Source of the DNA: Cinnamomum chago
Taxonomy: Eukaryota; Streptophyta; Magnoliopsida; Laurales; Lauraceae
Length of the DNA stretch: 64,000 nt
Direction of reading: 5' to 3'
Assembly: GCA_038049695.1 (NCBI GenBank)
Contig: CP142456.1
Location: forward strand, 21,672,501 to 21,736,500
Position numbers and translations under genes: made by a program. Each line of letters begins with the position of its first letter. The first letter of the stretch is position 1. Positions 5,509 to 55,168 of the stretch are shown here, piece after piece. Below the pieces are notes generated by a model. That model had not been told where the DNA came from. It did not search any database and was given only the letters and a program-made list of their open reading frames with translations.

Positions 5509-6630
5509 AGGGCCTAAAAAGCCTGATTTAGAGAGATCTGATTGGGGAAGTTGGAATTCGAATGGAGCAAGTTTGGAAAGGAGTCAAGATGCCAAGATTG
5601 ATGACGAGAGTCATTGGAATGGAAACACAATGGAAAGTCAGGGAGGCCAACAACATCAAGTATCTACTAAAAATGTTTGGAATACTGACATGATGGAGAA
5701 CCAAAATGGCTTTTCTAAACCTTCCTCAATCACGAATTCAGGCGCTTGGGATCTTCATATTTCTAAAGAAACTTCTGCTAAAAGGTCTTCGGATGGCTGG
5801 GGTGCCAAATCATATGATCGGGGTAGTCAGAATTCAAATAAAGCCCATGTTGAGAAGGTTTCAGAAGTTGATGGTTGGAATGGAAATTCCTGGGGTGCTC
5901 AAATTTTGAAAGAAACCCATTCTAAACCGTCTTCAGATGGATGGGGTGCAAACACAGATGGTTGGGGTGGTCATAATTCAACTGAAGTTGCTACTGAGAA
6001 GGTAGCAGTTGTTGATGGTTGGAACGACAAGTCTGATGTTTGGAGCAATCGGAAATGGAAGGTAACCGAGTCTCAAAGGTCTTCCGAAATGAGTGCGAAG
6101 CATTCTAAGTCAGACGCTTGGGCTGGCCAGAGTTCAAAGGTAACCAATACTGTGCATTCTAGAGGTAGCTGGGCAGCAAAGTCAAACATCTGGGGTGATA
6201 GTGATTCAAACAAAAACCCTGAAGAGAAGGATACACATGCTGTTTGGAAACGAACTTCATATAATACAAATTCAGATGGTTGGGATTGGTCAAGATTCAA
6301 AGGATATACAGACACAGAAGTCTATAGATGCTGCTGGTGGTAATACAAATTCAGAATAGAAAAGAATTCCATGATGAGAGATCCATGGAAATTGGTGGTA
6401 TGAGTGAAAAATCTGATGTTTGGGGTTCTCAAGTTTCAAAAGAAGCCAACATTGAGAAGTCTTCAGATACTGGTGGGTGGAATGCAAACATAATGCCAGA
6501 CCGGTTAAATCAACAACCAAAGGCTACTGGTTGGGGTTTAACAAGGTCTCCAAGGTGGGGTTCTTCAAATAATTTTGACCAGCAAAAACCCGAAGAGCCG
6601 ATTTTCCAAGCCACCTGGAAAGTCAGATGA
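5509..6630 (+). pseudogene. GW/WG-repeat (AGO-hook) protein fragment, NRPE1-CTD-like
   Basis: A long plus-strand open stretch (about 5520-6343, then another frame to 6630) with many tryptophans beside glycine, such as DWGSWN, DGWGA, NSWGAQ, DGWGG, SDVWGSQ, TGGWN and ATGWG, in a Ser/Asn/Lys-rich background. Such GW/WG platforms bind ARGONAUTE. In plants they occur in the C-terminal domain of Pol V subunit NRPE1 and in KTF1/SPT5L. The layout of roughly 20-35-residue repeats and KSDVWG-type units looks most like NRPE1, but no catalytic or KOW domain is present to decide. A frame change near 6300 ends the first frame. An AG preceded by an A-rich tract near 5509 may be the captured exon start. Likely a transposon-captured fragment. 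Confidence 0.6.
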
Positions 6631-19171: not shown

Positions 19172-19970
19172 CTAGTAATGAAAATTTACATTAACTGGGA
19201 ATATAACAGCACCATTACCATTTCCATCTCCCACCTGTATCATATGCTCTCCAGAAGGCACAAGGAGATAAGCACTGTCTGACACCACGCTCAAGCTCTT
19301 CGGACATGGATCCAAACAGGGAAAACCTTGTTTGGTCCAAACAGGAGGTGGCACATAGGGAAAGAATTTTTTTGAGAGTTATAATTTTTTTTTTAAGATG
19401 AGATGTGACATCTCTCCCATGTGGCACCCTATGATTGGACCAAACAGGGTTTCCTGTTTGGTCCAAGCAGAAGATCCATTTCTAGCTCAAACTTCACCGA
19501 CTGTTTCTCACCAGCCATCAGCGGGACTCTTTTGAACCCCACAACTTGCTTAGAAGGAAGCCCTTGATATGCATGCGGAGGCACTTCATAGACAATGAGC
19601 ACAAGGTTGCCCTTTTTGCATCCAGAATTATGCACTAGAATCTCAAAGTCAATTTTTTCATTGGTGACGCTGATCAAGTCATCAACAAGAACAGCTGGAC
19701 ATGGATTCAAGTACGCATCGGGCACGCTCTGCAGAACATGGCAACTCTGGTACTTTCTCAACTTCACATCCAAGGAATTTTTAGCACTGACGAGTATGGT
19801 AAACTGAGTGTAGCTTAGACCATAACCAAATGGATAGACAGTAGAGCCATTAAAGAATTTGTAGGTTCTTCCAGGGTAACCCAAATTGTCATCTGGCCTC
19901 AATTTCATGGATGTCATTGGAACTTGGTCAACATAGTTGGCGTGGTACCATGTCAAGGGTAGTCTCCCTC
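19172..19970 (-). pseudogene. Beta-xylosidase exon 7 (C-terminal), interrupted by foldback MITE
   Basis: Encodes GRLPLTWYHANYVDQVPMTS, YPGRTYKFFNGSTVYPFGYG, LSYTQF and the fibronectin type III-like C-terminal domain up to SVKFELEM (about 19478). After the MITE the text resumes as KSLSVVSDSAYLLVPSGEHM and ends NVNFHY with a TAG at 19172-19174. Confidence 0.87.
19308..19478. mobile_element. Foldback MITE, CCCTGTTTGG family (copy 2), in exon 7
   Basis: Inverted arms: GGATCCAAACAGGG, TTGTTTGGTCCAAACAGG, GGTGGCACATAGGG on the left, and CCCATGTGGCACCCTA, TTGGACCAAACAGGG, CCTGTTTGGTCC, GATCC on the right, around an AT-rich centre. It interrupts the coding sequence of the xylosidase between SVKFEL and KSLSVV. 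A clear target duplication could not be resolved; short AGCTC matches flank it. Confidence 0.75.
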
Positions 19971-20149
19971 CTAATATGATAGATGATGACGAGAGAAGAA
20001 TTTCAATTTCTCCTTTTCAGGAAGGTTTTAAAAAATTCAACCAAAATAGAGTGGACCACACATTAATAACAACACAAAGTAGGCCACATATATTGATTGA
20101 AGAAATTGTAATGTTGTGCGGAAGCATTCAACTTAGAACATATACATAC

Positions 20150-20563
20150 GAGGGTTGTAACGTCCGAAAATGATGTCTGCAATTGTTGTGCCTCCTCCTT
20201 CACCAGGATAGCCGGCCCAGATGATGGCCTTGATCTTCTTGTAATTCTTCGCAAAAGCGATGTCTTTCACGCCACCACTGAAGATGACAAGGATCACAGG
20301 GGTGGTGGCAATATCTGCGACTCGGTTGATAAGATCAGTTTGATAACCAGGAAGAAGAAGATCCGTCCTATCTGTGCCCTCCGCTTCGAATGACAGATCC
20401 AACCCAGCGATGATGATTGTTGCATCAGCATTCTTCGCAGCTTCCATAGCTTTGAAGACGAATGTTTCATTCTTACGTTTCACATTAGCACAACCCATTG
20501 CATAAGTAACATCAGCATCGTTTGAGAAGGCATCTAACGGAGAGACATATTTGAATGGAATTC
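20150..20563 (-). pseudogene. Beta-xylosidase exon 6
   Basis: Uninterrupted. Encodes IPFKYVSPLDAFSNDADVTY, KNADATIIIAGLDLSFEAEG, LLLPGYQTDLI, WAGYPGEGGGTTIADIIFG and RYNPR: the second GH3 domain with the GLD..EAEG and GYPGE..G signatures. Acceptor ACAG at 20567-20564, donor GTATGT at 20149. Confidence 0.88.
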
Positions 20564-20869
20564 CTGTAAAAATGGTTGAAAAAAAAAAAAAAAACTTATA
20601 AAAAAAAACCATCACAATTGTGCAATTTTGGTTGGACCAAACACAAACGCTTAGCATCACCAAACTGACCCATGTGAAATTGAGGTTTAGATCATACTTC
20701 CTAGCTTTAGAAGTGGTGCTCTTTATATCCCACTCTCAAAAGAATTGTAACAAGAAATTATTTGTTGATTATAATAAAAATGTTAAATCTTGGTTTGGGC
20801 AATGATTATCAAATTTATATCTAAGCACTCACAAATGCACATTCAAGGTATGATTCTGTATAGTTTTTT

Positions 20870-53178: not shown

Positions 53179-53499
53179 GAAATAATCTTTTTTTTCTTTT
53201 TTTTAGAAATAATCTTAGATTTATTATGAAAGCTAACAACTATATTTTTTTCTCTTGTAATCTTGCTTTTTAAGAATCACACTTGTGCAACAGGCCCGCC
53301 CTAGGATAAAAAATAATTAAAATTTTAAATAGAAAATTTATAAATATTTAAATAAATTAAAAATGAATACTAACATATAATTCATAATACAAACATAATT
53401 AGAATTGAACTTAAAAAGCAAAAGTCTTAAAAGGAAAATAACAAGTAGTTTAAAGGGTAAAAATAAGTAAAATGATCCAATCAGTTTATCTATAACATG
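53179..53499. other. No gene recognised
   Basis: AT-rich DNA following the Tat target duplication (53179-53183). Confidence 0.45.
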
Positions 53500-53775
53500 G
53501 TATTGGAAGAAGGGATTCCTCCAGCACTTCCTTGTGCAGTTGCCTCACTTGCACCAGTCCACGGTAGGGACTCACACTCTAACTAGTTGAGAGTCGGCTT
53601 TTATACCATTTATATCATCCCACCACACACGGATGCATGATATTGGCTCACAGGCCTCGTGGTTTTGTTTCTGGTATGCCTCAACCCACCAAAACACCTC
53701 ATGCAAGGTAAGGGTGCAAGCTCTACCTCTCTATAGTTGATGTGGGACTCTAGGGAGTCACATGGAGTCTTCCAA
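53500..53775 (-). mobile_element. Decayed second copy of the 24.2-kb TRIM family
   Basis: Read on the minus strand it follows the TRIM text in order: GAGTCCCACATCAACTATAG, GCACCCTTACCTTGCATGAG, GGTGGGTTGAGGC, AAAACCACGAGGCCTGTG, ATATCATGCAT, a primer-binding-site remnant TGGTATAAAAGCC, then CGACTCTCAACTAGTT and GGTGCAAGTG. It covers one LTR, the primer site and part of the interior; the second LTR is missing. Much older than the copy in the Copia. Confidence 0.82.
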
Positions 53776-53801
53776 GTATAAACACTCTTTTATATATTAA
53801 T

Positions 53802-54911
53802 GAGGAATTTATGGCGCAGGTCCCCGTAGGACCCCCTACCACTCTTGAGGTCCCAAACACATCGTATTTATGGATAAGGTCCTTAATTAATTAATTAATT
53901 TTTTTATTTTTTTTTGTCGTTAAGTGAATGGTCGATATCGACCATTTTGCGGAAACCCAAATAGAAATTGGGTTTTTCGGGAGGGAGAAGAGGAGAGGGG
54001 AGGTGGAGGGAGAAAAGGGAAATGGTTGATATCTACCATTTTGCGGGATCCCAAATAAAAATTGGGTTTTCAGAAAGGAGAAAAGGAGAGGGGAGGAGGA
54101 GGGAGAAGTGGCTAGGGGTGGTGCAACATGCGGTATTGGGGTTGTGCCATAGGAAGCATGGCGGACGGGCTGATGTAAAAGGAGAGCTCCTTCTTGGTTG
54201 TGACGAGGTCGTGCTGGATCTCTCTGAGATTGTGCTGAAGGAGGGAGATGCAGCCGACGCAGTCGTAGACGGGGTCACGAAGGCAGGCTTCAACTTCGTA
54301 AGCGAGGGAGTTCACAGCTTCTTCGCGTTGTGGGGCGCTGAGCTCGATCGTTGAGGAGCTTGGCTGCGTTGCTGGCGCCAAAAACCTTGTGCACATTCAC
54401 AAACTTATTTGGCTAGTCGAGAGGGAAGTAAGGAGCAAAGACGCACTCTTGCATGCACTTGCGTCGCAGGAACTTGCTGGCAGCACGGGGAGAATTCGAC
54501 GAAGCCATTTCAATGGATGCTCTATCTCTCTCTCTCTAGCAGAAATTAGAGTTCACACAATACCAAAACGAGAGATCTGGTAACCAGATCCTCCCCTTGT
54601 AAATCTTACAAGATCCACACGAAAGTCCTCGAAGACCCTGAGATTCGGAAGCAGTTACACCAACAAATCCACGAATCAATTACAAAACACCACCCCTCCC
54701 CTCCCCTTTTCTCCTTCTTGAAAAACCCAATTTCTATTTGGGTTCCCGCAGAATGATCGATATCGACCATAAAAATGGTTGATATCGACCAATCGCTAAA
54801 CGACAATATATATATATATATGCACCTTGAGGACCTTATCCATAAATATGGTGTTTCTAGGACCTTAGGAGTGGTATGGGGCCCTATCAGGATTTATGCG
54901 CTAAATTCCTC
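53802..54911. mobile_element. Pack-MULE with captured LBD gene
   Basis: 1,110-bp element flanked by a perfect 9-bp duplication TATATTAAT (53793-53801 and 54912-54920). Ends are GAGGAATTTATGGCGC and GCGCTAAATTCCTC. The inverted repeats extend about 200 bp, with GGACCTTATCCATAAATA, GGTCGATATCGACCAT and AACCCAAATAGAAATTGGGT in both arms. The left arm has a tandem duplication of its inner part (about 53930-54110). No transposase. The interior is an LBD gene copy. Long inverted repeats, a 9-bp target and host-gene cargo define a Pack-MULE. Confidence 0.92.
54112..54508 (-). pseudogene. LBD (LOB-domain) protein copy inside Pack-MULE
   Basis: ATG at 54506-54508, stop TAG at 54112-54114. Encodes the class I LOB domain: MASSNSPRAASKFLRRKCMQ, ECVFAPYFPLD, NKFVNVHKVFGASNAAKLLN, QREEAVNSLAYEVEACLRDP, VYDCVGCISLLQHNL and the leucine-rich coiled coil after it. 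The family is a plant-specific DNA-binding regulator of organ boundaries. Two of the four CX2CX6CX3C cysteines are changed (PRAAS where PCAAC is usual). There is an in-frame TAG after FPLD and a frame change after AAKLLN. The GAS and DP-motif (RDPVY) blocks persist. Not functional as a full protein; could still yield antisense or small RNA against LBD genes. Confidence 0.85.
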
Positions 54912-54920
54912 TATATTAAT

Positions 54921-55168
54921 TGATTCTTCATACAATGAACAATTCAAATTGACAATACTTTTATATTTTTTTCTACTTCATCAAATATTATATTATTCAC
55001 ACTTACTCTTCTACTTTTTAAAAAAAAATTTCAATGTCATCCTGTGTAATGAAGCCAATATTCTTCCAATACCACGTATAATTTGATTGAGTCATTTTAC
55101 TTTAGACCTTTGGTTTTTAAACTTCTATTTTAATTGTGATTGTGTAATTCATTTACAACTCATTTAAA
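54921..55168. other. No gene recognised
   Basis: AT-rich spacer between the Pack-MULE and a Helitron-like terminus. Confidence 0.4.

Follow-up and report, generated by a model that had tools for sequence, protein, structure and literature searches.

How part of an LBD transcription-factor gene came to lie inside a transposon-like element of Cinnamomum chago, and whether that copy still does anything there, is the question raised by a 1110-bp segment (53802-54911) of the window, the 64,000-nucleotide stretch of DNA analysed here. The available passages of PMC3310237 and PMC8903248 describe MULEs with 9-11-bp target-site duplications (TSDs) and terminal inverted repeats (TIRs) of 100-500 bp, as well as Pack-MULEs and tandem TIRs. 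More than 3000 Pack-MULEs, non-autonomous MULEs with gene fragments, are given for rice in that part of PMC8903248, and the accessible part of PMC13317346 states that fragments captured in Pack-MULEs are usually pseudogenes. We searched the genome that holds the window (1.06 Gb, 14 contigs) for relatives of the element, of its termini and of its cargo. Our results make it very probable that the element is an old non-autonomous Pack-MULE, whose ancestor took up 576 bp of LBD-gene sequence from the 5' end and which has since decayed.

Borders and termini of the element

The element is bounded by two exact copies (9/9) of TATATTAAT, the left at 53793-53801 and the identical right one at 54912-54920, as the sequence-only reading had claimed in reporting a perfect 9-bp duplication at exact borders. 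Given the composition of the window, a 9-base match at two fixed positions has a chance probability of 5 × 10−6 to 1 × 10−5. The left TIR (53802-54019, plus strand, about 202-218 bp), which includes the GGTCGATATCGACC palindrome and a purine-rich tail, pairs with the right TIR (54695-54911, minus strand). Specifically, the first 202 bases of the element align to the reverse complement of its last 217 at 73% identity (blastn, 217 columns, E = 3 × 10−32), with the best parts reaching 89% over 76 bp, which bears out the earlier estimate of inverted repeats of about 200 bp. A 50-bp module of the left arm (53927-53976) recurs in tandem at 54021-54070 with 90% identity and is followed again by a purine-rich tail, so that the second copy of the inner TIR module spans 54021-54114 on the plus strand; the number of these modules, with their GGTCGATATCGACC palindrome, varies from copy to copy. 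Both the 9-bp TSD, which differs in sequence among relatives of the element, and the length of the TIRs (typically 100-500 bp in MULEs) are those of a MULE. The G+C content is 0.47 for the element, 0.56 for its gene part and 0.40 for the window.

Beyond these ends, a weak inverted repeat links positions 53465-53511 and 55061-55102, and the left flank (53546-53762) is similar to sequence at many sites in the genome (40 of 502 candidates scored). Taken together, the outer repeat and the repetitive flank indicate that an older repeat probably holds or adjoins the element. An empty insertion site was not found among the best 40 of the 502 left-flank candidates, of which the window alone reaches the insertion point.

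Elsewhere in the window, a glycosyl hydrolase family 3 gene (PF01915, PF14310) is represented by exons on the minus strand at 19429-20663. A 256-aa frame with abundant W-G type repeats (5573-6343) gave no Pfam match; we take it to resemble the tail by which factors of RNA-directed methylation bind Argonaute.

The LBD cargo, its donor-type gene and its broken frame

Pack-MULEs prefer the 5' end of genes, and the minus strand of the element reads as the 5' leader of an LBD gene, its start codon (ATG at 54508) and its LOB domain. This cargo (54115-54690, minus strand) is a continuous 90% match to an LBD gene at C7:42.55 Mb, and the match stops within a few bases of each TIR. It measures 576 bp, comprising 174 bp of leader and about 130 of 275 codons, and the C-terminal half is missing. 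The sequence-only reading was thus right to see a LOB cargo, but not in calling it a nearly whole gene. The longest open reading frame overlapping the element (128 aa) is too short for a transposase, and Pfam found LOB alone in the single correctly framed cargo frame scanned, so the element lacks a transposase of its own, as a Pack-MULE does.

The C7 gene is intact, with 275 codons, and is presumably of the AS2/LBD36 type. Its LOB domain, which retains the zinc-motif cysteines expected of an LBD protein, matches PF03195 at 2.7 × 10−40 and the solved Ramosa2 LOB domain (PDB 5ly0) at 1.8 × 10−46. Inverted repeats flanking the native gene had been named as the observation that would speak against capture. 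Across 8.5 kb of sequence surrounding the C7 gene, no TIR match at E = 1 × 10−6 was found, and only short, mostly A/T-run matches of E = 0.003 or weaker occur; the element therefore carries a fragment of a host gene whose native locus is TIR-free over that span. A paralog at C2:88.23 Mb is 81% identical to the cargo and has several hundred additional bases, probably an intron, in its 5' leader, where the cargo follows the C7 form. As a side observation, CpG O/E in the C7 coding sequence (L014, 3965-4789) falls from 0.92 within the 390 bp that were captured to 0.29 in the remainder, while the two corresponding parts of the paralog are alike (0.75 and 0.73).

The window copy itself is unable to make an LBD protein in one frame. 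An in-frame TAG occupies codon 32 of the LOB frame (54413-54415, minus strand), where the C7 gene encodes Gln, and a 4-nt insertion (54346-54349, minus strand, placement ambiguous by about one base) shifts that frame, leaving the first LOB part in a different frame from the part downstream; on account of these two lesions the protein of the window copy is dead. A residual 94-aa frame (54112-54396, minus strand) still covers the second half of the LOB domain (PF03195, E = 2 × 10−10). The spacing CX2CX6CX3C characterises the cysteines of the LBD/AS2 LOB domain, and the window copy has lost two of them, in addition to acquiring the TAG and the frameshift. The PCAAC to PRAAS changes responsible, which the sequence-only reading had pointed out, are real and private to the window copy; the GAS and DP blocks that it described as conserved are recognisable, yet stand in different frames. 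Among the other copies, the same two cysteines both survive in L011, L013 and L015; L009 and L010 have each lost one of them by a different change, and L012 retains the first before its frame shifts.

A stop or frameshift inside the LOB domain is in fact present in 8/8 LBD-bearing copies (two of them identical). This bears on the idea of a coding Pack-MULE whose truncated LOB-domain protein competes with full LBD proteins, for which one may cite the majority reconstruction of the copies: it is open across all 130 codons, which makes it probable that the frame was still open upon capture. Given the lesions in every copy and a selection test consistent with neutrality (below), we regard such a coding role as extremely improbable.

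Relatives across the genome and other internal sequences

The whole-element query returned at least 141 matches among the best 40 of 319 candidates, and a 90-base terminal query at least 40 matches at 92-99% identity among the best 40 of 258. Since 40 of those 258 candidates were scored and all matched, the TIR family is probably larger than the elements read here. For the cargo query, all 16 candidates were scored, yielding eight element copies, one remnant element, the C7 gene, the C2 paralog and five weaker matches. Elements with most of the LBD cargo lie on C6 (the window), C1 (two), C10 (three) and C2 (two, identical); an element at C7:59.55 Mb holds only 69 bp of it. Copies at C6, C1 (two), C10 and C2 attest to the mobility expected of a Pack-MULE.

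The LBD copies at C6, C1 (both) and C10 have TSDs of 9/9 or 8/9, and the C2 copy does not. For 18 other elements scored by script, TSDs were 9/9 in six, one of which has the low-complexity TATTTTTTT, and 8/9 in four; L044 and L048 of this 18-element table were not settled by the script. By eye, L018 and L050 show 9/9 where the script gave no call. Weak matches were found for L015 (the C2 LBD copy, 3/9), L020 (4/9), L019 (6/9) and L021 (7/9). The three C10 copies have a common insertion-site flank with a TTAAATCTG-type TSD, and the C2 elements are identical, from which we infer that the C10 and C2 copies spread by regional duplication.

Such duplication, together with the missing clear TSD of the C2 copy, is what one would expect if an LBD pseudogene happened to be flanked by two MULE termini of independent origin, or formed part of a segmental duplication, and had never transposed as a unit. 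At C6, at both C1 sites and at C10, nevertheless, the TIR/cargo junctions are similar while the TSDs, each 9/9 or 8/9, are different. We therefore hold this account to be very improbable overall, and for the window copy, whose TSD is exact and whose relatives occupy other sites, it is strongly disfavoured. A Pack-MULE with LBD cargo, as initially proposed, is instead supported by the TIR-free, intact, donor-type C7 gene and by the occurrence of the same TIRs around other internal sequences.

With TIRs masked, 22 elements fell into four internal groups: LBD (eight, with L050), B (five), C (seven) and D (two). The search for elements with the same repeats and other cargo, which the sequence-only reading had recommended, thus revealed three or more further internal sequences. 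A unit of about 1.4 kb from group D is common to twelve loci (L029-L040, interrupted in L035 and L040), or 13 with L049, and contains a coding-like fragment with an acidic peptide that we presume to be NAF1-like. Group B appears exon-like to the eye. Pfam gave no useful match on the B and D peptides; the B and D internal sequences are likely, and those of group C possible, gene fragments.

One element departs from this scheme. L050 (570-1627; C7:59.55 Mb), with the TSD TTTTTGAAA (9/9 by eye) and the same LBD/TIR junction, retains 69 bp of LBD leader followed by a 451-bp piece of another multi-copy sequence (25/25 candidates scored). Its structure identifies it as a cargo replacement form, and template switching or end joining in gap repair would leave such a switch of cargo; a nested event plus deletion is a possible alternative origin.

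An autonomous partner with these TIRs was sought with PF10551, and none of the 150 candidates scored out of 3015 was placed in such an element. A 508-aa transposase-like frame at L029 falls outside the 1.37-kb element and was set aside as a partner, as was an 896-aa frame at L035 as a part of the family, since it lies within the 3.75-kb stretch that interrupts that copy.

Phylogenetic analysis grouped the copies apart from the C7 gene and its paralog (UFBoot 92, SH-aLRT 86.6), with inner branches unsupported; the identical C2 duplicate L016 and L050 were left out of the tree and of the selection tests. This grouping fits one capture and lends moderate support to a single origin of the LBD cargo. 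In the history that we favour, an ancestral element would have captured the LBD fragment once, when the gap left by an excision was repaired with template switching or end joining. MULE transposase supplied in trans would then have mobilised the copies, of which those on C10 and C2 may later have been duplicated along with their surroundings. The copies would have acquired CG plus CHG methylation of the transposon type and drifted.

Neutral decay and the question of an effect on the parent gene

The sequence-only reading had called for a Ka/Ks comparison with the parent gene. When the copies and the C7 gene are compared in pairs, raw, uncorrected dN/dS ranges from 0.23 to 0.79, which by itself might be taken for constraint. 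Relative to the majority ancestor, changes in the seven distinct copies amount to 96 nonsynonymous, 52 synonymous and nine stop changes, where a neutral control of random draws with the same mix of mutation classes predicts 50.4 synonymous changes and 6.0 stops (P = 0.42). Taken singly, none of the copies is enriched in synonymous changes (lowest P = 0.144). The C10 copies, with their common flank, are not independent, so the tests were rerun with one C10 representative, giving 35 synonymous changes against 36.6 expected (P = 0.66). The class-matched control accounts for the raw values, and the purifying selection one might read from them is rejected: no purifying selection was detected after capture, and the substitutions fit neutrality. 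The relaxed protein function proposed earlier was therefore right but understated, the frame being destroyed and selection undetected.

Transitions per site and copy amount to 48/403 at CG, 45/337 at CHG, 23/1209 at CHH and 36/1739 at A/T, the CHG versus CHH difference having a P value (9 × 10−16) that is too small because the copies share history. Decay at both CG and CHG is a sign of transposon-type methylation, and the CG/CHG-biased C-to-T decay seen here suggests past methylation of that type on the copies. The C7 gene and the majority ancestor show 25 coding differences, of which 11 arose in the C7 lineage, 11 in that of the copies and three are ambiguous; transitions on the C7 lineage number 5/42 at CG, 0/35 at CHG and 1/115 at CHH.

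These patterns bear on whether small RNAs from the cargo silence or methylate the LBD parent in trans, so that the element would regulate or burden that gene. Exact 21-mers in common with the C7 gene (71 for the window copy, 113 for L011) would offer a means to do so. The parent lineage, however, lacks the CHG decay of the copies (0/35 versus 45/337, nominally significant with Fisher P = 0.013, whereas the CHG:CG ratio gives only P = 0.06), a weak argument against lasting collateral methylation of the gene, and the captured part of its coding sequence keeps a CpG O/E of 0.92. Small-RNA action on the parent is, weakly, not favoured by these data, and we consider it unlikely; a continuing supply of 21-24-nt RNAs from LBD cargo in silenced copies on four contigs (a fifth has a remnant), by which the C7 gene would be tuned or burdened, seems a little more doubtful still. 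If true, the cargo RNAs would amount to an intragenomic conflict between a Pack-MULE and C7, a native organ-boundary developmental regulator. The present function of the window copy is most probably none.

Parallels in the literature place the element among known kinds. As far as the available passages describe them, rice Pack-MULEs share with it long TIRs, a 9-bp TSD and a normal-gene fragment with a TIR-free relative, whereas ours comes from another plant genome and carries LBD as its kind of cargo. Another multi-copy Pack-MULE (13 + 1), which has a single captured gene fragment and tandem TIR sequence, resembles the window family; in the latter, unlike in the former as described there, only the inner TIR module is repeated, in variable number, and the TIRs also bound other internal sequences. 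Silencing by captured sequences is reviewed in PMC13317346, whose accessible sections treat siRNA reservoirs from captured genes in maize, likewise transposon copies of a donor gene fragment. The window family has its part in this likeness through a mutation pattern suggesting transposon-type methylation, but in contrast to the donor conflict described there for maize, it is known from sequence alone and its donor is without sign of an effect. A full-text search for LBD/LOB together with Pack-MULE or MULE, in those words only, found no paper.

Here, then, is an ordinary Pack-MULE, whose novelty lies in its particular cargo and genome and not in its kind, and knowledge of Pack-MULEs is unchanged by it. 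Two cautions follow: the copies should not be annotated as LBD genes, and an uncorrected Ka/Ks of about 0.5 should not be taken as evidence of function. The element nonetheless offers a clear example of transduplication and later decay, with a donor-type gene, multiple copies, several internal sequences on one set of TIRs and a cargo-replacement form, in which the substitution pattern tells neutral decay from apparent constraint.
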